Source: Chiridota heheva (lineage: Eukaryota > Echinodermata > Holothuroidea > Apodida > Chiridotidae). Taken from it: a stretch of 64,000 nucleotides of DNA. The stretch is from contig JAIGNY010004328.1 in assembly GCA_020152595.1 (NCBI GenBank), positions 53,501 to 117,500 on the forward strand, given 5' to 3'. The position numbers and the translations under genes are program-made. Of the stretch, positions 3,831 to 62,205 are shown piece by piece (the first letter of the stretch is position 1; each line of letters begins with the position of its first letter). The notes beneath the pieces were generated by a model that was given only the letters and a program-made list of their open reading frames with translations, searched no databases and was not told the origin of the DNA.

Positions 3831-5612
3831 CAAAGCACTTAACAGCAGCCTTTGCTTGTACTTTTTGGGTCAATCAAATTTACCTGGCAATAAACTGTAC
3901 CTAATAAAGACAAAGAAAGCTAGTATAATGCTTTAAGAAACATACTTTTATCTAATCTATGTAACCCTAAGAAGCTACTGCCAGGCCTGTGTTAATACCA
4001 AAAATAAAATCAGCAAAGAAGAAGAACAGAAACACTTTACTGTCAGTCTGTGGATATGTAATTTGTCGTAATTCAGACTTCAAAAATCTGAAACGATTTC
4101 AGGAAACAACACAATTTACAAACTAAGTACCGGTACTTTACAAAATAATTATCATGATACCCTATGCGAATGCACATACTAAAAAGTATTATTTGGTAGC
4201 GCCCCCGGCTGGTATCCTGGTTTTAGGCAGATGGTAGAAGTTCTGTCTCATCGGTAGAAATCCTGAAGAGCTGAAGAGCCATGCTGAAGAGAACCAAAAT
4301 AACACTTGTAAGTATCCTGACAATATAGTTTCCTAAAATATACAATGTCACAAATTCTTGCATAATAATCAATAAAATTCACATTTGAGGAATGGCAGGT
4401 GGTTTTATACATAGGCCTGACTAGTCTGATTCAAAAATGAAACAGAACTTTAAAGATGAATATTTCCTTCACACAATATTTTTTTCAATCCTTTCTATTT
4501 ACTCTTCATACAAGATACTGTAATGCATGACGACTGAACTAATCTTTTTACACTGTAAGCACCTTCCTCAAAAAGGCTCATATTTAACACTTGCTAATGT
4601 CATGTATGCCCCGAAAAATGCAAACAGGAAATCGGTTTTAAAAAGGAATGTAAAAATGCAAAAAGTAAACAATATTGTAGATTTTAGCTAAATTACTCGT
4701 TCTTAAATAATGTAGTAGTAGGGTATTGATGAAGAATACAAATTGTTTACGAAAGTGCAATGAGTAAAATTCAACATAAAATTCAACATAACTTATTAAT
4801 TTGGTTCTTAAAGTAAAAAGGTAACAAAAAATAAAATTGTGCGTAGTACAAACAAAAGCTAATTGTTACTGTCAGCTAAAATGAAACATACAGTACATCA
4901 ATACATTATTCATATTCATGAGTGTATATTGAAAACTTCAGCTTAAAACACCTGGCAATCTGGCAAAAAAAAAATAGACTTCAAAGATAATATACAATAT
5001 TATAGTTATAGTACTGTACTTGTTGAATGTGTGGTATAAAAATGAATATTATTTTGATAAATACAAAGGAGATTTCACACAAGAGATTTCATACATTGAT
5101 ATGAAAATACTGAAAGACGAATCATGTATGTTGATACTGTACACCAGAAAAAAATGTATGCTGGGCACCAACAAACATGATGAAAGCAACAATGTAGAAG
5201 CCTTTAGGAAATGAATACAAAAATCAAGGTACTTAAACAGTCGCCTTATAGTACTGTAAACAATATGTTCAACAATGTAAACGAACAGGCTAAGATTATC
5301 CAACTGGCTAGTGGCTACTTACTTTACTGGCTAAGTGTAAGGAATACTACATTATAGTTATTAGGAAAAAATAGACAACTTGCATAGAAAGAAATGAAAT
5401 CATACTGTAAAAGGTTAGAATATTTGAGTTGAGTTTTTGAAGTGGGATTTGTTAAGAAACTTGTTAACTTACATTTAATACCTGATGTTCAATCAAAATG
5501 TTTAAAAATCTTTCAGTAATAATATTTCTTTGTTTGAAATGTTAATTTGCATTGACTTTGGCTCGATGCTTTTTGGGCAGGAATAGTACTTACTGTACAT
5601 GTACAACACGCC
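3831..5612. other. Long noncoding stretch
   Basis: AT-rich DNA with small spurious frames. A short CTGAAGAG-rich repeat lies near 4263-4290. No exon, RNA gene or transposon end is convincing. Confidence 0.4.
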
Positions 5613-6482
5613 CTACTGTTTGTGGAATAACTCTATCAATTTGATGTCCAGAATATGATCCTCCGGCTCCCACGAGTTGTACTTACACCCCCAGCCCTTC
5701 CACTTTACAAAATAGTGTACTTTTCCATTGATTATTCTTTTTTGTATGATGCGGGCTACTTCATACACTGGACCCATGTCTTGAATGTCTTCGTTAACAG
5801 TGCTAATTCCAAAAGCTACCTTGGTTAAAAACTTAATGGCTCATCATCCTCGTCATAATTCTCATCAGGTTCCCTACTGCAGGATGGAATTTCTGGTAGG
5901 CCTATGTTTTCATTCCTCACAAGTTCTGTTGCTGAGGTTTCAGTATACATGATGTCACCTGTATGCTCTTTGTTGTCACTTTCTGTCTCCCTATTGGTAA
6001 ATGCAGCTGCCACATTGCTAGTTCTATCCTCCTCATTGTCAGCTCTCTCCACATTAACCCCTCCCTCCACATTTCTTTCAACCTCTGCATTCTCTTCACA
6101 TCACTTAAGTCTCCGCGTTTTCCCCTGTAATGGCTGGGCTAAAGCACAAAAGCTTTTCATGTGAGGTGGTACCTCTGCCATCTCCAGTGTGTAATCATCA
6201 GAAAGAATATCTATTTCTTTGGCGACACAATCAGGTTGAAGAGTTTCTTTCTTAAATCTATCACAGATTGACCCTGTTCCTCCAAATGTCATCTTGTTAT
6301 AGACTATGTCTTTAAACAACACAAAAACCTCACACCCACTAATAAGCCCAAGTTCATTCGCTTTTTTAAAAAGTGTTCTCATCCTCTTGCTCTTTTTCTT
6401 ATTTCTTGATTGAATTTTCTTTTCATATACCACTTTAACCTGTCCTGTGTGTTGACATTTCTTGGTACATGTAGTTTCTGAC
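5613..6482 (-). pseudogene. Exon with MADS-like domain, acidic linker and Polycomb-type chromodomain
   Basis: A strong acceptor (a run of T, then CCTCGTAG) sits just upstream of 6482 in minus sense. The exon begins with a short Cys-containing basic region. It then reads KKKSKRMRTLFKKANELGL and SGCEVFVLFKD (about 6330-6420), resembling the helix and first strand of MADS boxes (SRF/MEF2). A TGA at 6102-6104 interrupts the frame. The same frame continues as an acidic, Ser/Thr-rich linker ending DENYDEDDEPLSF. After a 1-nt shift at a T run (about 5828) it reads VYEVARIIQKRIINGKVHYF, VKWKGW, NSWEPEDHILD, then a stop at 5613-5615. That is a chromodomain close to the Polycomb/CBX type, with Tyr and two Trp where the methyl-lysine cage lies. 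One real stop and one frameshift make it a pseudogene, or else an assembly artefact. The chromodomain is firm; the MADS call is weaker. Confidence 0.6.
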
Positions 6483-7308
6483 CTACGAGGAAAAAAAAAA
6501 GGGTTACAGTAAAATATATTCTCAAATAAATTCATTTTAAACATATTTGCAATATTAATGAGAACGCTCTTGAGAAGAGTATTTTAATTCTGTAGTACAG
6601 TATCTGCAACACAACCAAATTCAAAGCTTGCCACTTTAATTTGAACTTGCATAAGAGAAAACTGAAATTATCTTTCCCTCTTCTTCTTTAAAACTCTTCA
6701 CACCCAGGTCACACTGAAAATTCCTTTCTTTATAACATTGAATTGTTTTCTTTGCAAGATAAATGTATTCTTTGATTTCTATTGATTTTTTTTTTTTTAT
6801 CCAGATATTCAACACAGAAAGAAATATTTTCAATTTTCTTAGCAAAACTCCAATATACCCAAAAGTTTGCATCTACAATATGACAACCGTACGTAACTTT
6901 CAGCAGCTGTGCCAGTAGGTCTCAAAAAGCAAAAATACAAACAAAAAAATATTCGTTTTCAAGATATTCATTTATTGAAAATGTAGTCACTTATTGATAT
7001 AAAATTTCTAAAATTAACAGGTAAAATAAGTAGCTTCGTGTTATTTTTCGCCATTTTTTGGGCCCAAACTTTAGGCCACTGAGTACACTCTAAATAATGT
7101 TAAACGCGTAGCCCATTTTATCAGTAAGAGTCATGTACATGTAAGACTGTGTACAGTGCATGTAGCTCATAGCAATAATGTAGTACACTACAGTTAGTAG
7201 TATAGTGAAGGACCAGAATTCAACCACCTCCAAATTTCAATTACTTGTAATGTTACCCTCCGAGACAGTCTGACAAAATTATTACAATTACCAATGCTTG
7301 GCCAACTT
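6483..7308. other. Noncoding stretch upstream of the MADS-like/chromodomain exon
   Basis: If the downstream exon belongs to a gene, its 5' exons should lie here or beyond in the minus direction. I see no convincing exon. The sequence is AT-rich, with a T-rich tract near 6788. Confidence 0.35.
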
Positions 7309-9335: not shown

Positions 9336-9931
9336 CTAATTCTTCGGTATTTTTACCCCTTCAGCCAGGTAGATTAAACCAGGTAAGCAAAAACGCTGTG
9401 CAGGTTTGCTCAAAGATAAGCAATACATGACCAGCAAATGGGAACAAAAATGACACTTTTCCACTTGCCAACTGAACAAATTGAAGTTATATGAAGTGGG
9501 AGAACCTAAAAAAGATAAATTTGCAGAGAAAGGATCGGGTGTCTTTGCATAAATCCCTGGTACCAATCATACCCTGCCATTTTTTTCTCATTGTTGAAGC
9601 GATGTGGAATACCAGCTTCTACTGCCATTTCATACGTTAAATTACAAATTGCATTAATTCCTAGCCCAAAGCCCAGACTTTCCATCTCCTGGATGTACTT
9701 AAGTAACTTTGTTTTATCTTGGCGAGTAAAAACTGGGGGCCTTGTTGCTGGAGCATCATCTCGTATATCCTTACTTACTCGTTTTGCCAATGTAGATTTT
9801 GGAACACCAAACTGCTTAGCTGCTGCTCTGATTCCATACCGCTTCTCCTTTACTGCTAGGATGGCAGCACACATTGCTTCGGCTTTCCATTTTCCTTGAG
9901 TCAGTGTCCAACTTTTTCTCTTTCGGGGCAT
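9336..9931 (-). pseudogene. Pogo/Tigger-type transposase, N-terminal half
   Basis: Translation from the ATG at about 9931 begins MPRKRKSW, followed by a Psq-type helix-turn-helix (residues about 10-52) with YGIRAAAKQFGVPKSTLAKR. A CENP-B-type second HTH region follows (about 75-140) with GFGLGINAICNLTYEMA, AGIPHRFN and GYDWYQGFMQRHPILSL. These paired DNA-binding domains define pogo-like transposases and the host genes derived from them. After HPILSL the frame shifts (near 9510). The continuation ends AEGVKIPKN, a damaged counterpart of the DETG block that carries the first catalytic Asp; here that Asp is Ala. The rest of the DDE domain is missing. An earlier ATG at 9970 adds 13 unconserved residues. 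GTGGGACA-like repeats near 10090-10141 may be an end of the same element. Confidence 0.8.
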
Positions 9932-10694
9932 GTTAAGCTGAAAGACAGACTTAAGGAACCATAAATACACTTATAATACTCATATGACATTTACAATCAA
10001 TACATAATAAAAATTAATTCTGTTTATCTATTTTCATCTTGTTAAAATAAATACCACAGTGAAATAAGATAAAACATAACATAAATTACTTCGGTTGGGG
10101 TCTGTCCCACTTTCCCGAGGCATATGGGCTTAGTGGGACACCTCACAAATATTTGCGATAAATGTTTGCCATAATAATATGTACCCTAATTTAATGCTTT
10201 AAGTGAATAATTGTAATATAATTCTTCAAAATAACATAAATATTCTACCTAACAGTACATTGTAATTCATAAAAACCCATATCTTACACACCACCAGTAA
10301 CACTCATCACACATCCACACATCTGCAGGGCTTAATGTGCACGGCCAAAATAAACAATGTGCAGAAGCAAAATAGTGAACCCATTTTCAGAATCTATAAA
10401 TATTATGTATTCCCAAATTGAATAAAGATATACTTAATAATAATTGTACTCCATTTGCAAAATTTGTAACTTCTCTTTGAACTAAATTTAGCAAAAAATA
10501 AAAGAAATGTTGTATTAAAGTACAATGTTTTAAACAGTATGTCGTACATAAACTACAATGACGCCCGAAATTGACCTCAAACAATTTCAAAAATTTGTTA
10601 AATTTTGTACACAAACATTGTTAAACATTATCATTTTTACAGTCATTTTTACTAGATCATTTTATGTGAATGTATAGCCTAGAGCTGGGATAAT
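9932..10694. other. Noncoding stretch with a possible transposon end
   Basis: Between 10090 and 10141 there are inverted TGTCCCACTTTCCC and TAGTGGGACACC motifs, similar in style to the subterminal repeats of the pogo element at 12232-14377. The remainder is AT-rich with no recognised feature. Confidence 0.35.
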
Positions 10695-11175
10695 GTCTAT
10701 AGTCCCTCGTCTCATTGGTCCCCCGTCTCATTAGTCCCTCGTCTCATTGGTCCCCTGTCTCATTGGTCCCCCGTCTCATTGGTCCCCTGTCTCATTGGTC
10801 CCCTGTCTCATTGGTCCCCCGTCTCATTGGTTCCCCGTCTCATTGGTCACCCGTCTCATTGGTCCCCGTCTCATTGATCCCCGTCTCATTGGTCACCCGT
10901 ATCATTGGTCACCCGTCTCATTGGTCCCCTGTCTCATTGGTCCCCCGTCTCATTGGTCCCCGTCTCATTGGTTCCCGTCTCATTGGTCCCCGTCTCATTG
11001 ATCCCCGTCTCATTGGTCCCCGCCTCATCGGTCCCCGTCTCATCGGTCCCCTGTCTCATCGGGTCCCCGTCTCATCGGTCCCCGTCTCATCGGTCCTCCG
11101 TCTCATTGGTCCCCGTCTCATTGGCCTCCCGTCTCATTGGCCCCGTCTCATTGGCCCCGTCTCATTGGCCCCACA
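10695..11175. repeat. Minisatellite, 15-16 bp unit CCCCGTCTCATTGGT
   Basis: About 30 tandem copies with unit-length variation from 14 to 17 bp. Toward the 3' end the ATTGG core changes to ATCGG, then ATTGGC. The three overlapping open frames here (up to 154 codons) arise only because the monomer lacks stops; they are not genes. Confidence 0.95.
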
Positions 11176-11228
11176 ATGATAAAGCAATATAGGAAAATTA
11201 TACCTCACAATGAACTGAAAATGAACAA

Positions 11229-12231
11229 TAGATGAATAATACATGTATTAAATGTTCACCACTATAGATGAATGATATATGTATTAAATGTTCACCACTA
11301 TAGATGAATAATACATGTATTAAATGTTAATCCACTATAGATGAATAATACATGTGGTAAATGTTAATCAACTGTAAATGAATAATACATATATTAAATG
11401 TTCACCACTATATATGAATAATACATGTATTAAATGTTCACCACTATAGATGAATAATACATGTATTAAATGTTAATCTACTGTAAATGAATAATACATA
11501 TATTAAATGTTCACCACTATATATGAATAATACATGTATTTAATGTTCACCAATATAGATGAATGATACATGTATTAAATGTTAATCCACTATAGATGAA
11601 TAATACATGTATTAAATGTTCACCACTATAGATGAATAATACATGTATTAAATATTAATCTATTATAGATAAATAATACATGTATTAAATGTTAATCCAC
11701 TATAGATGAATAATACATGTATTAAATGTTCACCACTATAGATGAATAATACATGTATTAAATGTTCATTCACTATAGATGAATGATACATGTATTAAAT
11801 GTTCATTCACTATAGATGAATGATACATGTATTAAATGTTCATTCACTATAGATGAATGATACATGTATTAAATGTTCATTCACTATAGATGAATGATAC
11901 ATGTATTAAATGTTCATTCACTATAGATGAATGATACATGTATTAAATGTTCATTCACTATAGATGAATGATACATGTATTAAATTTTCATTCACTATAG
12001 ATGAATGATACATGTATTAAATGTTCATTCACTATAGATGAATGATACATGTATTAAATGTTCATTCACTATAGATGAATGATACACGTATTAAATGTTA
12101 ATCCACTATAGATGGATAATACACGTATTAAATGTTAATCCACTATAGATGAATAATACATGTATTAAATGTTCATTCACTATAGATGAATGATACATGT
12201 ATTAAATGTTCACCACTATAGATGAGTAATA
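11229..12231. repeat. 36-37-bp tandem satellite, left part
   Basis: About 27 copies of an AT-rich unit containing GAATAATACATGTATTAAAT and CACTATAGAT. Subvariants differ at the linker (TTCACC, TTAATCC or TTCATTC) and occur in blocks, which indicates local amplification. The array is interrupted exactly at a TA in one monomer by the pogo element and resumes at 14378. Confidence 0.95.
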
Positions 12232-17120: not shown

Positions 17121-19274
17121 CTATAGCTTGTCCTTGGAATGCCCTTCAACCTCTGGCTTTCCCTTGTGCCCCTCAACCTGCCTGTAACCCGCCATCTCAA
17201 ACATCCATTTGTCTATTGCTCTTTCCTCTTCAAATTGGCTCACACTGGGACCATTTATGGAAACTTTTAGCAAGTTGTTCAGGGACCAGTTCTCCATGCG
17301 ATTACGAGAGAAAGTCTTCACTCTTTTCATTGTTGAAAAACCTCTCTCACAGGCTGCTGTACTTGAAGAAAGTGTCACCATTATTTCCAAGATGTCATTT
17401 ATCCCTTGTACTTCCCCCATGTTTTCTCTGATCATTTTGCTATCAATTGCATTGGGAAGTATCTGCCATTCCTTTGGCATCTTGATGTTACGCCTGAGAT
17501 AATTCACTCTTAGTTTGAACTGTCCCCATTGCCTTAGAATGTCTGTTGAACCATGAAGCACACTTGAAAAATGTTCAGTAAGTCCCTCTATTTCATCATC
17601 TCCAAAATCTTCCAATTGATCATCATTGATAGGCCAGCTGGTGAAGTCGAAAACTGAAAAGTAGGAGAGGGGGGGTTCTTTCAACACACTGAAATGCTTG
17701 TCAATATATTCAATGACGCAATCAATGAAATCATTCATATCTTTGGAAAGACATTTGGGGTCAACCTCTGGCTCTTGGGGGCTGTGGCAAGAATGTTGTG
17801 GTCCCAGTGTTAGTTGGATGCCATGATACCTATGGTCTGTGGTTAATGCTTTTTCAAAGTTGGAAAGTGTGGTACCTTTCTTTTTCTTCATTTTTCGCAG
17901 TGCTGTTTTAATACCATTAAGTCCGCTTGTCACGTCTGGGAGCAACATGAAATCAGACTGAAAAATCTGCGAAACTACGGATAGTTCCACTGACACATCT
18001 TTCATAAAGTGGAGCCAATGAACAAATTGGACATCTTTTAGTTGCTTTAGGTATCCTGCAGCTTTTGCTACATTATCCCCCACACTGCTAGCTAGATTTT
18101 CTAGATGGAACACAAGAGATACATAGTTTCTTGTAATGGTGTTGAATACACGTGATTTATTGCCAATCCATCTTGTAGCTTGGAAGGACCCAAATGTGTG
18201 ACAAATGAGTCCATTATTTCATCTATCTCTTCAAGTCCTTGACGCCGTTTCGGAGATTGGGAATAGAATTTAAGATGCCCTTTATAGTTTCCTCAAAATC
18301 AGCATGAGGGATTGAGCCATCCAAAGCATCATGAAAGGCAAGCTCCAAATTATGGGCAATACAATGGACTGTGATGACATGGGGAAATTGCTGCTTAAAC
18401 TTTGCCGCAATCCCATTCTTGTGGCCCATATTTACGCTTGCCCCATCAAAGTTAATTCCAACAAGCTTTTTCTTCAGGATCTTGTCCGTTAAGCCATCAT
18501 CTGAAAGGCTGACTTGAGAGACTTTAAAAGTTCTTCAGCAGTACCATTTTCGGGCTCTAAGATTGTTACAAATCGAGTTTGTGGGTTACCATTCTTTATA
18601 TATCTAAGATACAAAAGTTCTCGTTCCTTAACCGAGATATCTGTAGATCCATCTGCCGTAACTGATATGTACTTGGTATTTTGCAGATCATCCTTTAGTT
18701 CATCTGACAGTACATCACAAATTACTGAAGTGAACCTTGCAGCTGCTTTGTCTGATACATAATTGTCCCCAACATCGATGCCACTTTTGGCTTGCAGCTT
18801 ACATAAGGAACAATACTTCAAGTAGGCTAAATCCTCTTTTGCGCAGTAGTATGCTGTGTTGAAAAGTACACGCATTCGTGCAGTTTGTGCTCTATCCATT
18901 CTTGTGGCAGCTCGAAAAAGTGGGCTTGATTTGGCCTGTGCAGCTGCCATGGATGATAAGTGTTGTTTGGTCCTTTCATGAACTTTGACAGGCTCGTATC
19001 TGAAATCATAGTCTTCACCCCCCACTCCTTTGATGAGAGAACTTTTAAGATCTGACTCCCCTGGATTATCCCTACACACACGACAAAACATTATTTTCAT
19101 GCCCTCCTCATAGGAAAGCCATCCATGCTTTTCAAGCCAGCTAGATTGGAATAAACGCTTCCGTTTGAATTGTTCATATGCCAATTCACTTTCTCTTCTT
19201 GAAGAAGGTTCATCCTCTTTTCTTCTTTTTTTATTGGAACCCCCTTTCCAGAAATCTGCAAGAGTTTTTGACAT
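17121..19274 (-). pseudogene. hAT transposase (ZNF862-like), two frameshifts
   Basis: Translation starts MSKTLADFWKGGSNKK at 19274 and would give about 715 residues. A basic N-terminus precedes a TTF/BED-like zinc finger (residues about 50-105) with FCRVCRD and a distal HERTKQH. The RNase H-like core shows the first Asp in SVTADGSTD (about 205) and the second in GINFDGASVNMG, followed by VHCIAHNLELA and FQATRWIGNKSRVFN. The C-terminal hAT dimerisation region has LSSSTAACERGFSTMKRVKT, with the catalytic Glu, then NNLLKVSINGP. Motifs match hAT transposases and derived proteins such as ZNF862. One 1-nt shift lies near 18495 and another near 18215; otherwise the frame is open, so the copy is recent or the shifts are assembly errors. 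All three catalytic residues are present. Confidence 0.9.
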
Positions 19275-19961
19275 CTCGAATCCTCTGTAGTCTGTACCAA
19301 ATCTGTTTTAAGAATTTTTTTAAGATCTTTTCACAAACGAAACTGCCCGTCTAGAACAAAGTTTAGTTTGAAAAAAAGAAACAGTAAATTACACTGTTTC
19401 CCTCCACAGTCCACTGCACACAGAACCTTTTTTTTTTTAATCATCCAAATGTTTTTTTCCTTTGAACAATTGAATAAATCTCAGAAACATTCACGAAAGA
19501 AAACATATTCCCTTTAACATGTACTGCTTTTCAAAATTAAAAAAACTAAAACCTATCAATCTGTCATTGAAACACATACAACTCATGAAAATCAGATTAT
19601 CAGACACACACGTGTGTACCCACATTGAAAGATTCCCAACTCCCGGAATGAACCAATCATGTCAACCGTTCTAAAAGACTCAAGCAAAATGTTTATGTAT
19701 TTATGCAAATAGTCTGCTGGCCAGGGCTTGTGCTGATCACAAGTGAAAACAAGTTACAACACGTGCGTTCAGTGCACTGTTGTACAGCCTGCTGTTGTAT
19801 GTACTGTATATACCGTTTTGTACCACGGGACATTAGCATTCCGTACTGAACTAACGTTATGCAATGCGTGAAAGATTGAACACGTGTGTGATACAATAAC
19901 ATGTACGAATTACGAAGGTTATCGTATCGCTGAGGAATGTGACGGTAATATTTCTAGATTT
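19275..19961. other. hAT 5' noncoding region
   Basis: Sequence upstream of the transposase start. It would contain the promoter, but no clear TATA box or initiator is distinguishable in this AT-rich stretch. Confidence 0.4.
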
Positions 19962-22149: not shown

Positions 22150-23904
22150 TTGGTTCGCATGCGTAGCATTATGCGAACTTATGTAATGGCGATTACGTCC
22201 GTCCGGCCGTCCACAGATTTGTCCTGAGATTTCCTCAGAAATGTTAAAGTTTTTTAAGAATTCCTCAGAAAATGTTAAAGTTTCTTCAGAGTTCCTCAGA
22301 AAAAGTTAAAGTTTCTTCAGATATCCTTATGGAAGGTTAGAATTTCCTTATAAAATGTTAAAGTTTTTCAGAGATACTTAAGATAGGATTGAAGACTAGT
22401 TTCCTTAAAAAGTCTACAATACATTTGATATTTTCTTAGAAGATAACTGTAAAATGATATAATTTTCCAATATTCTTCAGAGATCTTCAAGTCTCTCTTG
22501 TAGCATTTGAGATTTAAAATCCTTAAAATTCTTCAAAATATTTGGGCACCAACAGTTATATCAGGCATGATTTTTTTAAACTCCACCTTTATTATTGTGC
22601 TCATTTGCATAAAGTTGCTACAGTATTATGACCTGACCAGACTTTTTTATTTAATATGCTTAGTCAGGGAGTGTGACAGGATGTGATTGCATATAAACAT
22701 AGGGAGGGATGACATGTGGGACATGGATGGAGGCCATAGAGGACATGATTTAATATTTACCATGTTGTATACACCAAGGGCTATATCAGGCATAATTATT
22801 TGACTCCACATTTTTTTCTTATTCAACAACACATTTGCATATAAGTTATTATATAAACTGATACTTTAATACATAGTATGCTCAATCAGGGACTGTGATA
22901 GCTAGGATGAGACTTCTTATGGGGCTTATGGGATGTCATGTGAGATATAGGGTGGGATGTCATGTGAGACATAGGTTGGGATGCCATGTGGGACATGCGG
23001 TGGGATGTCATGTGGGACATGGGATGGGATGCCATGTGGAAGAGGGTGGAATGCCACGTATGATATGTGGTGGAATGCCATGCAGGACATAGGGTGGATT
23101 GCCATGGGATGGAATGTCATGTGGGACATGGGATGCCATGTGGGACATGGGATGCCATGTGGGACATGGGATGCCATGTGGGACATGGGATGCCATGTGG
23201 GACATGGGATGCCATGTGGGACATGGGATGCCAAGTGGGACATGGGATGCCAAGTGGGACATGGGATGCCATGTGGGACATGGGATGCCATGTGGGACAT
23301 GGGATGCCATGTGGGACAAGGATGCCATGTGGGACATGGATGCCATGTGGGACATGGGATGCCATGTGGGACATGGGATGCCATGTGGGACATGGGATGC
23401 CATGTGGGACATGGGATGCCATGGGACATGGGATGTCATGTGGGACATGGGATGCCATGTGGGACGTGGGATGCCATGTGGGGACGTGGGATGCCATGTG
23501 GGGCGTGGGATGCCATGTGGGGCGTGGGATGCCATGTGGGACGGGATGCCATGTGGGACGTGGGATGCCATGTGGGGACGTGGGATGCCATGTGGGGACG
23601 TGGGATGCCATGTGGGACATGGGATGCCATGTGGGACATGGGATGCCATGTGGGACATGGGATGCCATGTGGGACGTGGGATGCCATGTGGGACGTGGGA
23701 TGCCATGTGGGACATGGGATGCCATGTGGGACATGGGATGCCATGTGGGACATGGGATGCCTTGTGGGACATGGGATGCCTTATGGGACATGGGATGCCA
23801 TGTGGGACTTAGTGTGAGGTGTCATTTTTATAATTGGCCAGGTCATATGATATGGGTGTCAATTTGCATGGGCATGCGAACCATGACGGTATTTACCGTT
23901 CTAG
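22150..23904 (+). mobile_element. Helentron/HINE-like element B with internal minisatellite, 1755 bp
   Basis: Same termini as copy A: TTGGTTCGCATGCG at the left; GCATGCGAACCATG, hairpin ACGGTA-TT-TACCGT (23886-23899) and TCTAG before T at the right. The 5' third carries CCTCAGAAA/GTTAAAGTTT repeats. The middle carries noncoding blocks shared with copy C (for example GGGCTATATCAGGCAT and CTCAATCAGGGACTGTGATA), and the 3' half is a 19-bp satellite. A central tandem array between subterminal inverted repeats is a described feature of HINE/DINE-1 elements. No Rep/helicase gene is present, so it would depend on a partner. Confidence 0.65.
22985..23812. repeat. 19-bp minisatellite GGATGCCATGTGGGACATG
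   Basis: About 36 near-identical units from 23110 onward, preceded by more diverged units. Substitution variants (GACGTG, GGCGTG, AAGTGG) are clustered in blocks. Because 19 is not divisible by 3 and the unit lacks stops in most frames, open frames of 224-287 codons appear on both strands; these are artefacts. Confidence 0.95.
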
Positions 23905-24117
23905 TTCACCTTGGTTTGTCTCGCTTTTGACAATCACTTTTTAGGACAGTGTGACGTTTAAAAAAAGTACCATTGTTTGCATCATATTTAAATTTTAAAG
24001 GGTCACTTTTAGGTGAAAAAGTAGTTGCCTGGCGGGCAGATCACTTTGACAATCCACTTGCCCGGACATGAGTTTTGGTTGCCCTGGGCGTCCGGACAGG
24101 CGATTTGTCGAACGCTG

Positions 24118-24125
24118 CCAAGGGG
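24118..24125. repeat. Right 8-bp target-site duplication of the hAT element
   Basis: CCAAGGGG, identical to 16202-16209. Confidence 0.9.
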
Positions 24126-24200
24126 GCTTTCAAATGTAAAAAATACTTTTCAAAAAGAAACACAGATGATTTACATAAATTTGGCACAGCCCTTACAGAA
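24118..24200 (-). pseudogene. CACTA-like transposase copy 1, piece upstream of the hAT insertion
   Basis: Minus-strand sequence reads AVPNLCKSSVFLFEKYFLHL, then KAPL at the target site, in frame with LVFHEYCATC on the other side of the hAT. Copy 2 has the colinear segment AVPNLCKTSVYFF...LKDSSCISQVLCE (31010-31060), which confirms the join. The upstream edge runs straight into the 21-bp array at 24196-24772 in the same frame. Confidence 0.8.
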
Positions 24201-24772
24201 AAACTAGCTTGCAGCAAGCTAACACTAGCTTGCAGCAAGCTAACACTAGCTTGCAGCAAGCTAACACTAGCTTGCAGCAAGCTAACACCAGCTTGCAGCA
24301 AGCTAACACTAGCTTGCAGCAAGTTAACACCAGCTTGCAGCAAGCTAACACTAGCTTGCAGCAAGCTAACACAGCTTGCAGCAAGCTAACACTAGCTTGC
24401 AGCAAGCTAACACCAGCTTGCAGCAAGCTAACACTAGCTTGCAGCAAACTAACACCAGCTTGCAGCAAGCTAACACTAGCTTGCAGCAAGTTAACACTAG
24501 CTTGCAGCAAGCTAACACTAGCTTGCAGCAAGTTAACACTAGCTTGCAGCAAGCTAACACCAGCTTGCAGCAAGCTAACACTAGCTTGCAGCAAGCTAAC
24601 ACTAGCTTGCAGCAAGCTAACACTAGCTTGCAGCAAGCTAACACTAGCTTGCAGCAAGCTAACACTAGCTTGCAGCAAGCTAACACTAGCTTGCAGCAAG
24701 CTAACACTAGCTTGCAGCAAGCTAACACTAGCTTGCAGCAAGCTAACACTAGTTTTAACACTAGCTTGCGCA
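24196..24772. repeat. 21-bp minisatellite of near-perfect hairpins
   Basis: About 27 copies. Each unit is AGCTTGC-A-GCAAGCT, a perfect 7-bp inverted repeat with a one-base centre, followed by AACACT or AACACC. The minus frame encodes LLQASVS heptads and is continuous with the CACTA transposase piece below 24200, apart from units of altered length such as the one near 24370. It probably expanded within, or at the edge of, that exon. Confidence 0.95.
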
Positions 24773-25085
24773 AGCTAACATGAAGTTTTTGCTAGCTAAC
24801 ATGAAGTTTTTGCTAGCTTGCGCAAGCTAGCATGTAATTTTTGTTAGCTTGTGCAAGCTAACATGAAATTTGTGCTAGCTTGCGCAAACTAACATCAAAT
24901 TCATGCTAGCTTGTGTCAGCTAACATCAAATTTTGCTAGCTTGCGCAAGCTAGCATCAAATTTTTGCTAGTTTGCGCAAGCTAACATCAAATTTTCTAGC
25001 TTGCGCAAGCTGACATCAAATTTTTGCTAGCTTGAGCAAGCTAACAAATTTTTGTTAGCTTGTGCAAGCTAACACAGTTTCTTTG
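24773..25085. repeat. Diverged palindrome array, about 36-40-bp spacing
   Basis: Repeated near-perfect palindromes such as GCTAGCTTGCGCAAGCTAGC (about 24813-24832) and GTTAGCTTGTGCAAGCTAAC are separated by CATGAAATTTTTG-like or CATCAAATTTTTG-like spacers. The core is clearly related to the adjoining 21-bp unit, which looks like a shortened, homogenised derivative. Confidence 0.85.
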
Positions 25086-28666: not shown

Positions 28667-29995
28667 TTAGCCTTTACTTGGTGGTGGGATCTCTAGCTTG
28701 GCATGTCTCATCAAAAGTTCTTCCTTGATGGTGAACCCTCTGTCAGCAAGTATGATATCCCCCTTGTCAATTAAATTTAAAAAAATCCAGACTCCTTTGT
28801 AATTAAAACATCTGATGCCCTCCCTCCCCAAGCTTTTGAAATGAGCGATAGCATGCCATTTGGAGCTATGGCAACCAAAAACTTGATGGTATTATGTCGC
28901 TTGTAGTCCGACCATGTTAGTGCCTGAAGTTCCAAATTTCGTGGCTGACCAATAAATACTTCCATACAATTTATGGTACACCTCAATGTCTTGTACTTAT
29001 TCTTAAGGCTCACAGGCATTTTCTCCAATATGATTTCCTTGTCTGGCCAGAAGATTAGTGGTTTGAGCTCAAAAGCCAGGAATTTGACCCATGTGTTGAA
29101 TATTTGCGAGGCGCTTCCCGACGATACACAAAACAAACTTGCCAGACAGGAAATCGTGAGGGCCATTCTCAATTTAAGAAGGACCAACAGGAACTCTTCC
29201 TTCACCGTGAGTGTTCATGCAGGTCCAAGCTTGGTCAGCTGCCTTATTGGAGTTCTCCTTGGGGATGACTCTTTCTTCCTGCCACACCACTACCTTATCT
29301 TTTTCCCATTTGGCAACAGGTACTGGTACAATGCCATAAACTTGGTCTGTGACTGTATGCCAGTGTATGACTTCACAGTGGTGTCATTCTTCACGATAAT
29401 TTTCTAAATCAGATAATCATTTGTGTGTTGCACTTTAGTGTGTATCTTCTTCTTCTTTAATTTTGCAACCTTGCTTACAAGTTCTTGGATTTTCTTTGCT
29501 TTATCAACACACTCTACACAATCAGTTGCAGGAGCATAATAGGAATGTTCTTCCAGATGAGGCTTCATTGTTTTCTTAGGAGGACCATCAGTTCCTTCAG
29601 CTGTTGAAGGCTCAAACTCTTCAACAACAGGTACCTCCTCTGGTGGTGCAGCAGCTGGTGCTGTTTGTTTTGAGTCCTTTTTCATTGATGATTTCAATTC
29701 ATTTTTACGAGATGGCTTTCTTGCAGCTTTTGTTGATAGCTTGTCATATCCCAAATTTTCTAAAGGGTTTGGGTGGGCAGATGTTGGCTCTGTGTCAACA
29801 AAATGTAATGAGCAAATTCTCTCATCTTTTGATGGTTGCCAGTTTTTCCCATCTTTACTTTTTCTGTTGACAAGCTTTGTCCATGTTTTCCTCCGTTCTG
29901 GGTCCTTGGTTTCAGTAGGGAATGGAAATAATTGAACGGTGGCTTACATTCACAACGACCAAACTCTAAACCATGAAGTTTACCTAAATGAGAGT
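28667..29995 (-). pseudogene. THAP-HTH-DDE transposase of an ISL2EU-like element (ORF1)
   Basis: Reading leftward from 29995, a THAP finger shows FGRCECKPPF, FPTETKDPERRKTW and RICSLHFVDTEP. A basic Pro-rich linker and a short coiled coil (VDKAKKIQELVSKVAKLKKK) follow. Next is a TGIQSQTKFMALYQYLLP segment and a helix-turn-helix region (KEEFLLVLLKLRMAL). The DDE domain reads INCMEVFIGQP, TWSDYKRHNTIKFLVAIAPN, KAWGGRASDVLIT and, after a frameshift near 28783, DIILADRGFTIKEELL. The normal first catalytic Asp (IDCTE) is Asn, and a TGA interrupts at about 29217, so this copy is inactive. The domain order matches ISL2EU-type transposases. The initiating exon upstream of the finger was not found; the CACTA-like gene begins within 20-30 bp. 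Confidence 0.8.
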
Positions 29996-30013: not shown

Positions 30014-33000
30014 TTACATACTATGTATCAACTTCTGGAGATGAGAGATAAGTGAAAAAGCTTCCCTGGAGTAAGCAGAAGAAAACCAAAGTTGAAGAAG
30101 TTTCCGATCAATACCGAGGAGAACTTGATGCATGTAATCTGCAGCTGTTTCTTTAATGATGTCACATCCCCAAAACATGAACCAGGAAAGTCCTTTAATC
30201 CCATCTATAACCTTATTTTCAACAAGTGCTGCAACTCCTGCTCCAAGAGTTTCTTTATGTGTACGTTTTGGTCCATTCCTGTTAACATAATCAAGAGGGT
30301 ACACATGAGTAAATCCTCTCTCAACAGGTATATCTTTTCCTTCTTGTTTGCAATATGTGCACCCAAATGCCCCATTAAATTGTTTCATATTCAATACTAT
30401 GCTTTTAGCAGGCAAGTCACAAGTTCCCCAAGCAGGATACCTCTTACTGTTGTGTATTTCTCCTCACCAGCCATCTTCACCTGAAAACCTTCTTTTAATG
30501 TTCACAACAAAGAATGAAATGGTTCAGAAATGAGGTCATATATGGCTTGGGGGATCTGTACCACAATCCAGCAAAGATCATATTTTCTTTTAAAATCCTA
30601 TTTCTAAAGGGCAGCTCATTGATCATAAAATAAAGTGGCCAAATGGAAGACTGATAATTTGAATAGAGGAATACCATCTGTATACCAAAAGAGGGAAATA
30701 TTTTGATCATTGTTCAAAAACCCATTTGCTCCACAGTGTGCCTGGTATTGGTATCCATCATAAATGTCTTCAATATTGTTGGGCTTTGATTTGTTTCGCA
30801 CAAATTTATGTTTCATATCATCAGATATTCCTTTCCAAATAAGTATGTTTACAAGTTGTGAAATTACCAAAATTTCAATGAAGTCATCTCTACTTTCTGG
30901 TTCCGCTAATGAGGAATTGCATGCTGGACAGTGTGTATTAAACACCTTCATCTTTCAACAGGAAAAAACATTTCACACAAAACTTGTGAAATACAAGAGG
31001 AGTCTTTAAGTCCGAAATTTAAAAAAATAAAAAAATAAACAGATGTCTTGCACAAATTTGGCACAGCACAATGAAGTGATATAAGCATTAACAAGTCCTG
31101 CAGACACTTTCCGGATAGTTGGTATCTCATCACAAACATGAGGATGAGGTACAAGCTGTCATCCAGGGTCAGGGGTGCACCATCATACAGTGGTCTCTTA
31201 TTGTCATCCAGGGTCAGGGGTGCACCATCATACAGTGGTCTCTTATTGTCATCCAGGGTCAGGGGTGCACCATCATACAGTGGTCTCTTATTGTCATCCA
31301 GGGTCAGGGTGCACCATCATACAGTGGTCTCTTATTGTCATCCAGGGTCAGGGTGCACCATCATACAGTGGTCTTTTATTGTCATCCAGGGTCAGGGTGC
31401 ACCATCATTAGTGGTCTTTATTGTCATCCAGGGTCAGGGGTGCACCATCATACAGTGGTCTCTTATTGTCATCCAGGGTCAGGTGTGCACCATCATACAG
31501 TGGTCTCTTATTGTCATCCAGGGTCAGGGGTGCACCATCATACAGTGGTCTCTTATTGTCATCCAGGGTCAGGGTGCACCATCATACAGTGGTCTTTTAT
31601 TGTCATCCAGGGTCAGGGTGCACCATCATTAGTGGTCTTTTATTGTCATCCAGGGTCAGGGGTGCACCATCATACAGTGGTCTCTTATTGTCATCCAGGG
31701 TCAGGTGTGCACCATCATACAGTGGTCTCTTATTGTCATCCAGGGTCAGGGGTGCACCATCATACAGTGGTCTCTTATTGTCATCCAGGGTCAGGGGTGC
31801 ACCATCATACAGTGGTCTCTTATTGTCATCCAGGGTCAGGGGTGCACCATCATACAGTGGTCTCTTACTGTCATCCAGGGTCAGGGGTGCACCATCATAC
31901 AGTGGTCTTTTATTGTCATCCAGGGTCAGGGGTGCACCATCATACGTGGTCTCTTATTGTCATCCAGGGTCAGGGGTGTACCATCATACAGTGGTCTTTT
32001 ATTGTCATCCAGGGTCAGGGGTGCACCATCATACAGTGGTCTCTTATTGTCAGATTGTGGGTATCCGATTCTGTATGTTCATCTACAAAATCTTCATAGT
32101 TATATACATCATCATCACAGTCATTCCTACAGTCATACCAAATTTCTTCATCATCTTTGTCTTCATCATCTGTGAATTCATGGCTGCTTCCAAAGTTGTG
32201 GGTATTGTCCTAGATTACCTTAATATGTGGTTCAATAGTTGACAGGTCCCTGTTAAGAAAGATAGAGAGAAAAACAAAATAAAAGTATTATGTTTTACTA
32301 TAGTATAAACATAAGACAGTACAGCACACAGGGCACTACAACCACCATGAAGAATAAACAGTTACATGTAAAAGAAAAAAGTATATGGCTTAGCTTCTCT
32401 TTGAAAATAAAAGCCCTCTCAACAGCTACTTAAATCTCAATTAAATATTTTATGGAGGGATCATCCACCTGAGTTTACACCTGACTGATTTTAGTTTGGA
32501 TTGTGTTTTTCTCATGTGATTTATCAAACTATTTTGTTTTTCTGTGCATGACTGAAGTGCCCTACTCGTTAGCTTAAAAGAAATTTCAGATAGATTTAAC
32601 AAGTCTACAAGAAAGATTCAATACCTCATCATCGGTGAGAATATGGTGGAAAACTTTACTATTGCATGCCAGTCATGCATGCCAAATGGCTTATTTCCAA
32701 CTCACTCCTTAAAGTCATGCAGAAGGCTGTACAATGTGGGCTTGGTTCAGGCCTACTAAACTAAAGGTGGATATGGAAGAATACTGTGTAACACTCAGTG
32801 GAGTCAAACATGCTGCCATGAATGAACAAGGAAATTGATTGGGACGGAAGTGGAAGAACACCAGGTTTGACCCTGCTCTTTTCAAGAAGTGATCAGAGAA
32901 CCAGGCAGGGGGCGGGAAACACTGCCGTGGGGACCGCCATTTAACATCCTCATCCGATACTAGACGGTGAGCGCTACCCAACCATTATCCACTTTTCAAA

Positions 33001-34819: not shown

Positions 34820-36580
34820 GCAATTAATCAAAAAACATAGGGTGTAAACAATTGAAGTAAAAATATAAGTCCAAATCATTACCTAATTTTCAGTTGAGAT
34901 TTAAAAACATTGTAACAGTGAATTGCACGTAATTGAACGAGTAAATTATTCCACAAGGTATAGGCAGCAACAGAATAAGATCTTTGACCAGCAGATTTAG
35001 AATTGAATTTTGGTAAAACAACGAGTTGGAGCAGTTGACTGTCTGGTAAAACGAATTGGATTAGAAACTTTTAAATGTAAGTAGGAAGGTCCGGATTTAT
35101 AGACAGATTTATGGGCGAACATAAGAATTTTGAATTTTATTCTAAACTGAATAGGTAGCCAATGAAGGTTAAACAGAATTGGAGTGATATGGTCGAATTT
35201 TGTGCAGGATGAAAGCAGACGAGCAGCATGGTTTTGAATTTTCTGGAGACGTTGAATTTGATAATTAGGTAAACCAACAAATAAGCTATTACAAAAATCA
35301 AGTCTCGAACTAATAAAAGCATGAACAAGAGTGGCAAGCATTGAGAGCGGTATGTACTTCTTGACTGAGAAAATGTTATGTAAATGCCAGTAGGCATTTT
35401 TACAAACAGTTGCCAAGTGGGCATTATATGAGAGACAACTATCGAATATAACCCCTAAGTTTCTGGCAGAAGTGCTTTTTGAGATGGTGACGCCATCGAT
35501 ATATAGATTTAGATCAGGGACTGGCTTCCGGCGTGATTTTGGATGGAATAGAAGTAACTCAGATTTGTCGGCATTGAGCTTGAGCTTGTGGCTAGTCATC
35601 CAATTACATATGGTTAGAATACAGGTCTCAAATCTTTTAGTGACAGACAAAATTTCATCGTTATCATCTAGATTTACTGGCAACCATAGCTGTATATCAT
35701 CAGCATAAAAATGATAGTAAAGCCCACATTTTTCAATAAGATCAGCTATGGGTGCAGTATAAGCCGTATATAAAAAGGGACCAAGCACGCTTCCTTGAGG
35801 TACACCGTAGTGGAGATCCTTGACAGTACAATGGTGCTTATCAATGACAACCTTGAAACTTCTGTCGTGAGATAAGAATGAATCCACTTCAGAGCATCAC
35901 CAGAAATGCCAAAATATGATTTGAGCGTATCAAGAAGAATAGTATAATCTATAGTGTCGAATGCTGCGGACATATCTGGTAAAACCATATTAACACCTCT
36001 TTTGGAATCAAGGTAGTGTAGTATACTATCGCTGATGTGTAACAGCGCACTCTCTACACTGTAATGAGATCTGTATGCCGATTGATTGGGAGGATAAATT
36101 CCATTGTCGGCAAAATACTTATGTAGTCGAAGAGACGCGATCCTCTCCAACAGTTTAGAAACAAACGATAGGTTGGATACTGGTCTGTAGTTTTTTAGTA
36201 ACTCTTTGTCCAAGATGGACTTCTTTAAAAGTGGAGTAATAATAGCCTGCTTCATACTTGTGGGAAATGATCCATTCAAGAATGATAGATTGATCATTTC
36301 AACTAGAGCAGGTATGATGCTGTTAATGGAATCACTGAACAATTTTCCAGGCAGAGGATCAAGACTGCAGGTCTTGATGGGTCGCGACTTGATCACTTCC
36401 TTAATTTCTTCGATTGAAGTTGGTGATAGCTGAGACAAGGACGAACTACTTTTGGAAATTTGATGTTGAGTATTTTGGCACATGGTTCCTGGTTCATCTA
36501 GTTCATTTCGTATTTTAGAGATCCAGACACCCTTGTTGCTTTAGTTGGTAAAACACATCATAAAATTTGCGAAGACAGCC
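34820..36580 (-). pseudogene. LINE (jockey/CR1/L2 group) reverse transcriptase, 5' truncated
   Basis: Two minus-strand frames (36483-35746 and 35887-34997) join across a 1-nt shift near 35890, with WIHSYL overlapping DSFLSHD. RT motifs appear in order: CSLDPLPGKLF, ITPLLKKSILDKELLKNYRP, FVSKLLERI, NQSAYRSHYSVESALL, MSAAFDTIDYTILLDTL, GVPQGSVLGPFLY, YYHFYADDIQLW (catalytic YADD) and LKLNADKSELLLF, then the thumb region with ARNLGVIFD. The first catalytic Asp (DMSAAFD) and the YADD pair are intact. The endonuclease is missing upstream of about 36580, a normal 5' truncation. The 3' UTR runs to about 34820 with no clear simple-repeat tail. Clade assignment within the jockey superfamily is tentative. 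Confidence 0.85.
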
Positions 36581-49435: not shown

Positions 49436-49780
49436 GGATGAGGGTGGGATTTCATGTGGGACAGGGTGGAATTGTATGTAGGGCAGGGTGGAGTGAGATG
49501 TTAGCCAGGATGTGTTGGCATATTAGACAGGGTGGGTTGGTATGTAGAACAGGTGGGTTGGCATATGGAACATAGTGGGTTGGCAAGTGGAACAGGGTGG
49601 GTTGACATGTGGAACAGGGTGGGTTGACATGTGGGACAGGGTGAAATGGCATGTGGTAGGGTGTCAGCTGGATTCAGTTGTGATATGACATGTGGTGGTG
49701 GATTGACATATATGTGTGATTGCATTGGGTATAGGTGTGCGATGACATTTGGGACGGGTTGGGATGGAATGTGGGACAGT
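49436..49780. repeat. Degenerate minisatellite related to the Helentron satellites
   Basis: Units of 20-27 bp contain CATGTGGAACAGGGTGGGTT or CATGTGGGACAGGGTG. The CATGTGGGACA core is shared with the arrays in Helentron copies B and C. No Helentron termini are seen nearby, so the relation may be convergent or the element may be lost. Confidence 0.65.
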
Positions 49781-50762: not shown

Positions 50763-53131
50763 ACACTCACAACCCTCTGTGGGGCTCTATTACCACCACC
50801 CCCAGAGGCAAACTCATCAAAAACGCTCTTCATCAGCACAGCCTCTCCTTGCTCAACACTAACTACCCGACTTACCTTCATCCTGCCACAGGCTCTCTCA
50901 CCTGTATTGACCTGTCTATCTGTTCCCCGAACCTCCTCCCTGATTTTAGATGGAGAGTCACTGCTGACCTCTGTGGTAGTGATCATTACCCTCTTCTTAT
51001 ACACTCCAACCTTCAAATCCCCACTGACCACACCCCCAATTGAAACCTCGTGAAGGCTAACTGGCCCCTTTTCGAAACCCTCTGTGACTCGCACCTCTCC
51101 CCCCATCTCCTCGAGGATGAGGATCTCATGTCAAACTTTAGTAATATCCTTATCAATATCGCCACCTGCTCAATTCCCAAAACCGTACCTTCTACGGGGA
51201 CGACTTCACCATCTTCTACTCCTCCACTAGCTTTCCTCTTGTTGAAAATAGGCTCCAACTCAGCCTCAACCAACTGCAAGTCTGGTGCAACAATAACAGT
51301 TTTAAATTCTCCAAAGACAAGACAGTCTATATGCACTTCTGTCATTTCAACAACCTCCACCCCAACCCGAACCTTGTGCTCAATGGCAATCGCATCCCTA
51401 AAGTTGAATAATGATCTGACCTCTCAACCTTGTGTTCAATGGCAATCACATCCCTAAAGTTGAACACACAAAGTTCCTGGGTCTAACTCTAGACCCCAAG
51501 CTCACCTACAAGCAACACATCACCAGTCTGAAACAAAAATGCAACAGCTCCCTTAACATTCTCAGCCTCCTCTCCAACACCACTTAGGGTGCGAACCGCC
51601 ATGCTCTCCTCAAAAGTTTCAGGCTCACCATTCGTGCCAAGCTTGACTACTCCAATATTGTCTACTGTGTCGCTCACAACTCGTACCTCAACCACATCAA
51701 GACCATCTAAAATGAAGCCCTCAGGCTTTGTCTAGGTGCCTACAAGACCTCCCCAATCAGCAGCCTTCATGTTGAGGCCAAGAGCCCCCCTTTCTACTTA
51801 GAGAAGTAAAAAGCTTAGCCTCTCCTATGCTTTTAGAGTCCTCACCAACACCCAGAACCCTGTTTACAACCTCATTAGGTACCCCAATTTCTCCACCCTC
51901 TTTGATAGGACTAAAACCCTATCCCCTCCCTTCAGCTTACACATTAAATCAGACCTCTTCCATCTCGGCATCAACCCCGCCACTCTCGGCACCTTCTCCT
52001 GCCCCACTTTTCCTCCTTGGGCCACCCCTCCCCTCTCCCTTCTGTCCACCTCTTCACTCATCACAAAACTCAAACCCACCCTAACCTCGTCATCAATCTT
52101 CACAACCAAATCAAAGACCAACTCTCAAATTACACCTCCATCTATACTGATGGCTCCAAGGAAGGCAACAAGACAGCTGATGATACCATCATCCAAGACA
52201 TCACCCTCAGTAGCAGACTTCCCGACTACTCATCCATCTTTTCAGCTGAGGCTAAGGCCATTCTCCTCGCCCTCAACTTTATTAAGTACTCTCCGCTCAG
52301 CCACTTTGCCATTTTCTCCGACTCAAAGGCTGTTCTTACTTCTTTACTCAATCTAAAATGGAATAACCTCACATCCCACCTCCTCCGGAAACTCCTTTCG
52401 CCCACCCTCTGCAGGAAAACTGTTCTTTCCTTCTGGATACCCAGCCATGTTGGCATCCCTGGCAATGACAGGGCTTATGCAGCCGCTAAGCTTGCCATCA
52501 ACCTCCTCCCTACCCCTTTTCCCAAAACCCTCTCTGACATCAAACCGCTTATCACCTCCCTTGTTCGTGACCGCTGGCAAACCTCATGGAACTCCCAAAT
52601 TAATAACAAACTCCATGTCATCCAGCCCACAATTCTGATCAAACCCACCATCAACAACCTCTCTCGTGTCGACAACGTTCATATTACCTGTCTTAGAATA
52701 GTTCACACCCACCTTACTCACTCCCACCTCCTCATTGGCTCCCCCCAACCCCTCTGCAACAATTGCCATTGCACCCTCACAATCCATCACGTTCTCCTTG
52801 CTTTCCCCCTGTACAACCTTCCCAGAGCTTCCCTTGCTCCCAACTCAATTGCTGAGTTCTTCCAGAAAAATCCTCCGGATAAAATTATCTCCTTCCTTCA
52901 TCATGCTTCCCTCTACAACCATATTTAATTCTCCTCTTCCACCCCCTCTCTCTACTTTGTTTTTGTTTCAACCATACACCTCCTCTCTCGATCACAGTTT
53001 TCTGACTTTTTGTTCTTGAATTTCTCTCATTCTCCCCCTGTTTCCTTTCTTTCCTACCTTTAGAATGATCTGACCTCTCAGGCACAATTTGACCCTCGTT
53101 GTCATGGTAGCGTTAAGCCCTTATCAAACAA
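50763..53131 (+). mobile_element. I-group-like LINE with RNase H, internally deleted, bounded by 15-bp TSD
   Basis: The 5' part (about 50770-51180) encodes the end of an AP-type endonuclease with GSLTCIDLSICSPNL and CGSDHYPLLI. At about 51186 it jumps directly to FYGDDFTIFYSS, so the RT fingers and most of the palm are missing. RT then continues (FSKDKTVYMHF, HKFLGLTLDPKLTYKQHI) with several stops into the RNase H domain. Around 51365-51470 about 40 bp is duplicated with an AATGATCTGACCTCTCA insert, a phrase also present near 53064. The 3' end is (CAAA)n. A terminal RNase H points to the I/Nimb/R1-like groups. It is 5' truncated and cannot encode a working RT. Confidence 0.8.
52017..52928 (+). 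CDS. RNase H and C-terminal region of the LINE polyprotein (intact frame)
   Basis: A 303-codon open frame, best read as part of the longer LINE frame rather than from its own ATG. RNase H residues are all visible: Asp in SIYTDGSKEG, Glu in FSAEAKAILLAL, Asp in IFSDSKAVL, and His/Asp in WIPSHVGIPGNDRAYAAAKL. The region after RNase H ends in a Cys/His cluster (LCNNCHCTLTIHHVL), a zinc-knuckle-like tail found in several I-group LINEs. The intact domain contrasts with the damaged RT upstream. Confidence 0.85.
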   Translation: MGHPSPLPSVHLFTHHKTQTHPNLVINLHNQIKDQLSNYTSIYTDGSKEGNKTADDTIIQDITLSSRLPDYSSIFSAEAKAILLALNFIKYSPLSHFAIFSDSKAVLTSLLNLKWNNLTSHLLRKLLSPTLCRKTVLSFWIPSHVGIPGNDRAYAAAKLAINLLPTPFPKTLSDIKPLITSLVRDRWQTSWNSQINNKLHVIQPTILIKPTINNLSRVDNVHITCLRIVHTHLTHSHLLIGSPQPLCNNCHCTLTIHHVLLAFPLYNLPRASLAPNSIAEFFQKNPPDKIISFLHHASLYNHI

Positions 53132-61080: not shown

Positions 61081-61790
61081 TGATTTTAATGATGAACAGC
61101 TTTCTCTCAGTTCAATCTTAACTGATATGTGCAATAATATTGACAGGGTTATTTTATCAATAGATGACGTTCAAATGCTTTTTTTTTCTAGGGTTAATGT
61201 ACATAAAGCCATTGGGCCAGATCGTATAAGTAATAAAGTAATTAAGTTATGTAATTTCACTGATTTTCTTTTTAGGATACAATTGATACTGGTGAGATCC
61301 CTGTTATTTGGAAAACAACCGCAATATCTCCAGTGCCAAAATCAAATACAGTTACCACCCTATATGACTATCGTCCAGTGGCACTTACTTCGATCATAAT
61401 GAAATGTCTTGAAAAATTAATTCTCAGGTTTTTGCTAAATGAGAATGATGTTATTTTAGATCCCATGCAATTTGCCTGCAGAGACAAAAGAAGTGTTGAT
61501 GATGCAGTCTTAATGTTTTCGCATAAGATTCTTGAAGACATGGAAACACCAAATTCCTTTGTTCGGGCTACATTTGTCGACTTCTCAAGTGCTTTTAATT
61601 CCATACAGCCGCACTTGCTGATAAACAAATTGTTAGGTATATGTGTCAATTGTAGGTTATTATTATGGATCTTAAATTATTCAAGAGATATACTACAGTT
61701 TGTTAAGATGAATGGCTTATGCTCTGATGTTTGGTCCATTAGTACTGGTGCGCCCCGTGGTTGTTGTGTTGTCTCCTATCCTCTTTTGCA
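61075..61790 (+). pseudogene. Jockey-superfamily RT fragment inserted within the CR1-like LINE
   Basis: The plus strand reads KAIGPDRISNKVIKLC, then after a shift near 61280 PKSNTVTTLYDYRPVALTSI, IMKCLEKLILRFL, MQFACRDKRSVDDAVLMFSH, FVDFSSAFNSIQPHLL and STGAPRGC, followed by a damaged SPILFCI. The first catalytic Asp (FVDFSSAF) is present. The YADD segment and everything after it are missing. It belongs to a different LINE lineage from the minus-strand CR1-like copy that flanks it on both sides. Confidence 0.8.
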
Positions 61791-62205
61791 TCTCTTGAAC
61801 ACGAGCACCTTTCCTAGTTAAATGCAAACCATCTCTCATGAACCAATCAAAATTCAAAGTTATGCCAGAAATTTACAAAACCAAACTCAAACAGACGTCA
61901 AATACTCTCTAGCCAAATATTGATTAACATCATCTTATCTATCATAAAGGAACTGCAACAGACTAATAACTAGAACCTTACAACCTGTGTCCTTCAACTT
62001 GAATAACAAATCCATGAAACTACGTCTAACAGAATCAACATTTGTCTTTGAAATATCATTTATACCTATTGAAACTACCACATTATCTTTACCCTTACAT
62101 AAAGTTTCAACACGAAAACTCACGTCATCAACTCTAGTCCCTGGAAGACACCCTCCAGCATACCACCAGCAAGGTTCTGTGGTGAAGCCCGACAAATACG
62201 ATTGA
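61770..62205 (-). pseudogene. CR1-like LINE ORF1, SGNH esterase domain, truncated
   Basis: The minus strand encodes PGTRVDDVSFRVETL, KDNVVVSIGINDISKTN (block III GxND) and GCKVLVISLL. After a shift near 61930 it reads FDWFMRDGLHLTRKGARVQ (block V, catalytic Asp/His in DGLHL). SGNH esterase domains are known in ORF1 of CR1/L2 LINEs. The Ser block just upstream is cut off at about 62205, where the gag-like region starts. Orientation and position fit the ORF1 partner of the ORF2 at 58863-61080. Confidence 0.75.

Follow-up and report, generated by a model that had tools for sequence, protein, structure and literature searches.

The 64-kb window analysed here (the whole stretch of DNA, C3513:53501-117500 of a 1.1 Gb assembly) carries a broken exon in which a MADS part is followed by an acidic linker and a chromodomain. 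This exon probably represents a decayed segmental duplicate of one member of an animal gene family. In the proteins of this family, a MADS domain at the N-terminus and a Polycomb-class chromodomain at the C-terminus or close to it are separated by a long acidic linker, which is often repetitive and contains a DDxPLS-type motif. As relatives in the same genome hold both domains in one open frame, the pairing looks, as far as sequence can tell, like a real gene family and not a chance reading, and both domains are kept together and in order in diverged open paralogs. The copy in the window itself is a decayed duplicate, not a working gene. Coordinates of the features are collected in Table 1.

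Table 1. Features of the window and of the intact counterpart of its exon; positions are those of the window unless a contig is named.
Feature	Position	Strand	Basis or remark
Broken exon: MADS part, acidic linker, chromodomain	6482-5613	minus	sequence, Pfam
Probable splice acceptor adjoining the exon: poly-T tract, AG at 6484-6483	6483..6510	minus	sequence
MADS domain core, 67 residues	6248..6448	minus	gap-free alignment to three distant paralogs
Acidic linker, MADS frame open after the TGA, end near the DDEPLS motif	5828..6100	minus	
Polycomb-class chromodomain, Y/W/W cage; stop codon two residues on	5622..5768	minus	
Duplicated segment common to the window and C1555:305868-308499	4325..6916	minus	92.4% identical, 2652 columns
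Pogo/pipsqueak-type HTH ORF	9506-9970	minus	Pfam (HTH_psq 28.8 bits, cut-off 20.4)
hAT-like transposase remnant, two ORFs	17121-19307	minus	Dimer_Tnp_hAT, zf-C17orf113, both below cut-off
THAP domain ORF adjoining HTH_Tnp_4/DDE_Tnp_4 ORF	28777-29943	minus	
Reverse transcriptase and RNase H ORFs	34997-35896; 51948-52928; 61276-61821	minus; plus; plus	
Large minisatellite arrays	10702-12231; 22929-25074; 31157-32052; 49441-49656; 56065-57774		basic periods about 16-45 bases
Counterpart of the window exon, one open frame	C1555:306302-307180		

The initial annotation had described a single acceptor-led exon with a MADS-like domain, an acidic linker and a CBX/Polycomb chromodomain bearing HILD and WKGW features, and all of these elements were recovered. 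The poly-T tract and AG directly precede the exon, and the same acceptor was seen by eye in the copy on contig C1555. The Pfam search proposed earlier was carried out with three exon pieces separately, the first spanning 6583-6101. The MADS piece matched SRF-TF with 28.5 bits (E 1.1e-6), above the curated cut-off of 26 bits for this family, and the chromodomain matched Chromo with 58.4 bits (E 6.7e-16), while the linker piece had no Pfam match. Seven controls, consisting of the MADS piece in reverse and six shuffled versions of it, gave no SRF-TF match at E up to 10; one of the shuffles gave a weak match to an unrelated Pfam family. Furthermore, no frame with fewer than two stops occurred in any of 2000 dinucleotide shuffles of the 657-base MADS and linker stretch, the best frame of a shuffle containing 12 stops on average. 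Against solved structures, the window chromodomain, which carries the motifs VY...WKGW...WEPE...HILD, matched Polycomb best (3.7e-15), followed by CBX7 (7.4e-15), with the HP1-class CBX3 at 3.9e-11; its Y/W/W residues presumably occupy the aromatic cage positions. Rfam at gathering thresholds gave no matches, and no tRNAs were found under the bacterial code.

The two flaws noticed earlier are both present in the sequence: a TGA in frame at 6102-6104 and, near 5828, a frame change of one base. Comparison of the coding part with C1555 showed four gaps, three of one base and one of seven, which account for the TGA and the frame shift of the window copy. C1555 has an uninterrupted frame across both domains, so the stop and the shift are peculiar to the window copy. 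Single-base flaws may possibly stem from assembly error. An exon that we read as the MADS exon of MEF2 (L001, C1297:642230-645319, around 1500) lies in two frames split by one base, a hint either of such errors or of a broken MEF2 copy. Assembly error as the sole cause of the window flaws was rejected because one of the four gaps spans seven bases. An intron across the TGA or the shift was likewise rejected, as no plausible donor and acceptor pair was seen by eye and C1555 reads through.

The window is rich in transposon remnants. The HTH_psq ORF is apparently a DNA transposon fragment or a gene derived from one, and no evidence was found for it as an upstream exon of the MADS-chromodomain gene. 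The THAP and HTH_Tnp_4/DDE_Tnp_4 ORFs probably form one DDE transposon with a THAP domain, and the reverse transcriptase and RNase H ORFs probably belong to LINE-type elements. Several of the minisatellite arrays yield long, meaningless open frames.

A genome-wide Pfam search for SRF-TF (E up to 0.001) returned five places: one on C1297, which we read as the MEF2 exon, two on C3290, which we read as SRF exons, the window, and C1555:306371-306469. The last of these lies in a single open frame of 326 codons that holds the MADS part, the linker and the chromodomain (SRF-TF 28.0 bits, Chromo 60.4 bits). The segment shared with the window, about 2.65 kb at about 92% identity, includes part of the intron and the 3' flank. 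Substitution divergence amounts to 4.3% in the exon, compared with 7.6% for the intron part upstream of it and 5.1% for the downstream side. For the C1555 clade, the exon has no in-frame methionine ahead of the MADS helix, and strict scanning of the 20 kb upstream of C1555 gave no candidate for a first exon. About 625-660 bases just upstream, present in three related copies (C196, C1028 and C3458), are missing from C1555. Farther upstream of the intact copy, at C1555:282000-305000 (L008-L010), fragments of ORFs repeat at intervals of about 8-9 kb, which suggests tandem duplication.

A DNA search of the genome with 1.9 kb of C1555 as query identified matches at C196 (90%), C1028 (88%), C3458 (86%) and, for the linker and chromodomain only, C368 (77%). 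Each of these copies contains stops or gaps that change the frame. Protein searches reached at least 137 places with the C1555 query (E up to 10) and at least 136 with a query from the distant paralog C3695 (E up to 1). By our own count among the matches listed, both domains occur in order on one strand at no fewer than ten loci, namely C1555, the window, C196, C1028, C3249, C3695, C1184, C577, C700 and C2229; part of the MADS stretch is lost in C1028, and the MADS part of C700 is weak (E 0.19). The joining of a MADS domain and a chromodomain in one exon, first noticed in the window, thus recurs as one open frame at three other loci, C1555, C3695 (348 codons) and C1184 (366 codons). Stops, or the lack of a single open frame, mark the other seven of the ten listed, among them C577, whose MADS part is open with its own methionine and is followed by a stop before the chromodomain. 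Among the matches listed, the N-terminal part stands alone at C3458, C1446, C3377, C1084 and C3343, and the chromodomain alone, among the better matches, at C368, C810, C3106, C36 and three times at C3710. The three C3710 matches follow in a row within 2.6 kb (C3710:274537-277160) and, judging from the search tables, resemble the family chromodomain. The locus count leaves aside many weak chromodomain-only matches and matches to the repetitive linker of C3695. Of the distant loci, C3695, C1184 and C577 were read in the DNA and the others were taken from search tables.

The chromodomains of C1555, C3695 and C1184 align without gaps at 56-66% identity. Their profile, searched against solved structures, found CBX4 first (1.5e-23), with CBX2, 4, 6, 7, 8 and Pc spanning 1.5e-23 to 7.3e-21 and the best HP1-class chain at 2.1e-15; by this sequence comparison, the family chromodomain is of the Polycomb class. 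In the window and in C1555 a stop follows within a few residues of the chromodomain, leaving no room for a Pc box, and in C3695 and C1184 the part of the frame outside the piece read is no longer than 15 and 11 codons, respectively. With E up to 10, Pfam showed in these three open members no chromoshadow domain and no integrase, transposase or reverse transcriptase.

The initial annotation had considered both a transposon-borne regulator and a host gene. The first of these, in which the protein is an accessory of a mobile element multiplying in the genome and its chromodomain aims integration at silent chromatin, as in chromoviral integrases, is the strongest of the alternatives and still unlikely. 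It would agree with the existence of several copies that differ in age and are mostly broken, with the transposon remnants of the window, and with the many places in the genome that match the chromodomain alone, which we take to be mostly retrotransposon chromodomains. The start of the C1555 query, in the intron region, is moreover a dispersed repeat: by our count, 26 further places match it at 67-77% identity, their matches being confined to roughly the first 130 query bases, except for one that reaches 196. The copies compared with C1555 (the window, C196 and C3458), however, have no common ends: the segment shared with C1555 measures 2.65 kb in the window and about 3.4 kb plus two upstream blocks in C196, and in C3458 blocks outside the gene, some of them tandem repeats, continue as far as the compared stretch goes (C1555:316000), so that one pair has flanking sequence in common far outside the gene. 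Extents of this kind resemble the outcome of segmental duplication more closely than that of a mobile element whose ends are fixed. A Polycomb-class chromodomain and the empty integrase and transposase searches also speak against a mobile element, and no relative was confirmed in the viral and the bacterial and archaeal contigs scanned. A transposon-borne origin is thus the less likely of the two readings, and segmental duplication of a host gene is preferred.

It is quite improbable that the N-terminal domain is an unrelated basic helix and strand that resembles a MADS domain and is joined to a real chromodomain. Such a reading would fit the weak single-sequence SRF-TF scores of the distant members, which stay below the cut-off of 26 bits (C3695, 12.8 bits, E 0.085; C1184, 19.0 bits, E 9.4e-4) while their Chromo matches are strong (2.2e-17 and 2.3e-15, respectively). 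The single-sequence fold of the window MADS piece is also of low confidence (pLDDT 36.7), with the helix (29-44) and strand (53-57) where expected. Searched alone against solved structures, this piece reached MEF2 chains and MCM1 at E 0.5-1, with MEF2B on top (E 0.51); a single sequence is therefore insufficient, whereas a family profile suffices. The profile, built from five N-terminal domains, found two SRF chains first (1.3e-4 and 1.8e-4), aligned over 57 residues without gaps, then MCM1 (5.1e-3) and SEPALLATA3 (0.074), and lower down MEF2 from 0.11, mixed with bacterial CRP chains at E 0.12-0.51, the last being a point for the unrelated-fold reading. Reversed and column-shuffled profiles found no MADS protein and gave one unrelated match each (E 2 and 2.4). 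SRF-TF was the sole Pfam family matched by all five N-terminal domains at E up to 10. Furthermore, the local alignment score of C1555 with the genome's SRF was reached by 1 of 2000 shuffles (z 6.2) and that with a MEF2 exon piece by none of 2000 (z 7.1; z 2.0 for the next MEF2 piece).

The 67-residue MADS core is gap-free in four members at 22-40% identity (31-36% among C1555, C3695 and C1184), and C3695, C1184 and C577 have an in-frame methionine at the start of the domain. The linkers align poorly between members and contain different tandem repeats; the motif before the chromodomain reads DDEPLS in C1555 and C3695 and DDQPLS in C577, and is less clear in C1184 (DDEAPL).

Selection was assessed by counting changes unique to one copy, all other copies present agreeing. 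When the window is left out, C1555 has 9 silent and 6 replacement changes, as against 22 silent and 60 replacement changes summed over the broken copies C196, C1028 and C3458; the smaller share of replacements in C1555 has a Fisher p of 0.017, uncorrected and based on 15 changes in C1555. When the window is kept in, the C1555 changes come to 2 silent and 0 replacement, too few to judge, and the broken C3458, with 8 silent and 12 replacement changes, gives a ratio of 0.39 (interval 0.15-1.08) and so appears to be under constraint as well, the ratios of C196 and C1028 being 0.98 and 0.81. A comparison of C1555 with the window alone showed no difference from neutral (p 0.15). Pairwise dN/dS is 0.82-0.98 among C196, C1028 and C3458 and 0.52-0.62 between these and C1555; for the window it is 0.63-0.76 with the same three and 0.55 with C1555, and pairs with the older C368 give 0.36-0.55. 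Among the distant members third codon positions differ most, and the three unsaturated comparisons of a pair and domain gave dN/dS of about 0.5 and 0.5 (MADS) and 0.3 (chromodomain), the other six being saturated. Taken as a whole, the substitution patterns are moderate evidence that some family members are functional. That the whole family consists of pseudogenes with leftover open frames is very improbable: seven of the ten listed loci are indeed broken and no start was found for C1555 in its exon or the 20 kb upstream, but the substitution patterns fit selection, and C3695 and C1184 have an in-frame methionine at the MADS N-terminus and still show open frames of at least 333 and 355 codons, despite saturation of the silent sites between them.

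If the domains act as their families do, the MADS domain would dimerise and bind an A/T-rich, CArG-like site, and the chromodomain, with an aromatic cage of Y or F, W and W, would read trimethyl-lysine. H3K27me3 would be a more likely mark than H3K9me3 because the sequence is of the Polycomb class. The acidic linker of variable length may serve as a flexible tether, and the protein may thus act at silenced chromatin as an anchor or a sensor with sequence specificity. In the window and C1555 copies the stop lies too close to the chromodomain for a Pc box to follow, so the protein would presumably not be a standard PRC1 subunit; it would recognise the mark without using the usual route of entry into PRC1. 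The family appears to expand by segmental duplication, most of the recent copies seen being dead.

Among known proteins, the type I MADS factor SRF is the first match of the family profile, and its SKR and KKA.EL positions are kept. The family differs from it in having the MADS core in one exon, whereas the genome's SRF appears, in our own reading, to be split after GIMKK; in ending in a chromodomain; and in the low identity between members in the core. The type II factor MEF2 belongs to the same domain family; it comes before SRF when single sequences are compared and falls behind SRF and MCM1 (E about 0.1) with the family profile. With Polycomb and CBX2, 4, 6, 7 and 8 the family shares the chromodomain class, including the WKGW and ILD..LI motifs. 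In Pc proteins, however, the chromodomain lies at the N-terminal end and not at the C-terminal end as here, and the present family has, in addition, a predicted DNA-binding domain of its own and, in the window and C1555 copies, no space for a Pc box. Chromoviral (Ty3/gypsy) integrases also carry a chromodomain at the C-terminal end; they differ in the integrase and reverse transcriptase, which had no match in the three open members, and in the chromodomain class.

Animal MADS factors are described as being of two types, SRF-like and MEF2-like, usually with only one SRF-like factor (PMC3048864). No protein with a MADS domain and a chromodomain appeared among the matches listed in the open-access literature, which weighs little as evidence of absence. 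From the sequence comparisons we tentatively propose, at somewhat less than even chance, that the family is a third animal MADS family beside SRF and MEF2, made up of sequence-specific binders with their own Polycomb-class reader that would recognise a DNA motif and a silent chromatin state in one protein, with fast duplication and loss in the lineage. A fast-evolving third set of MADS proteins with many members, fused to a methyl-lysine reader, would, if true, be unexpected for animals. How Polycomb is directed by DNA sequence outside flies is, to our knowledge, still an open question for animals. If the proposal is true, the family would provide a natural protein that physically couples recognition of DNA sequence with reading of Polycomb chromatin, and the guidance of Polycomb by DNA outside flies would become testable by simple binding assays.
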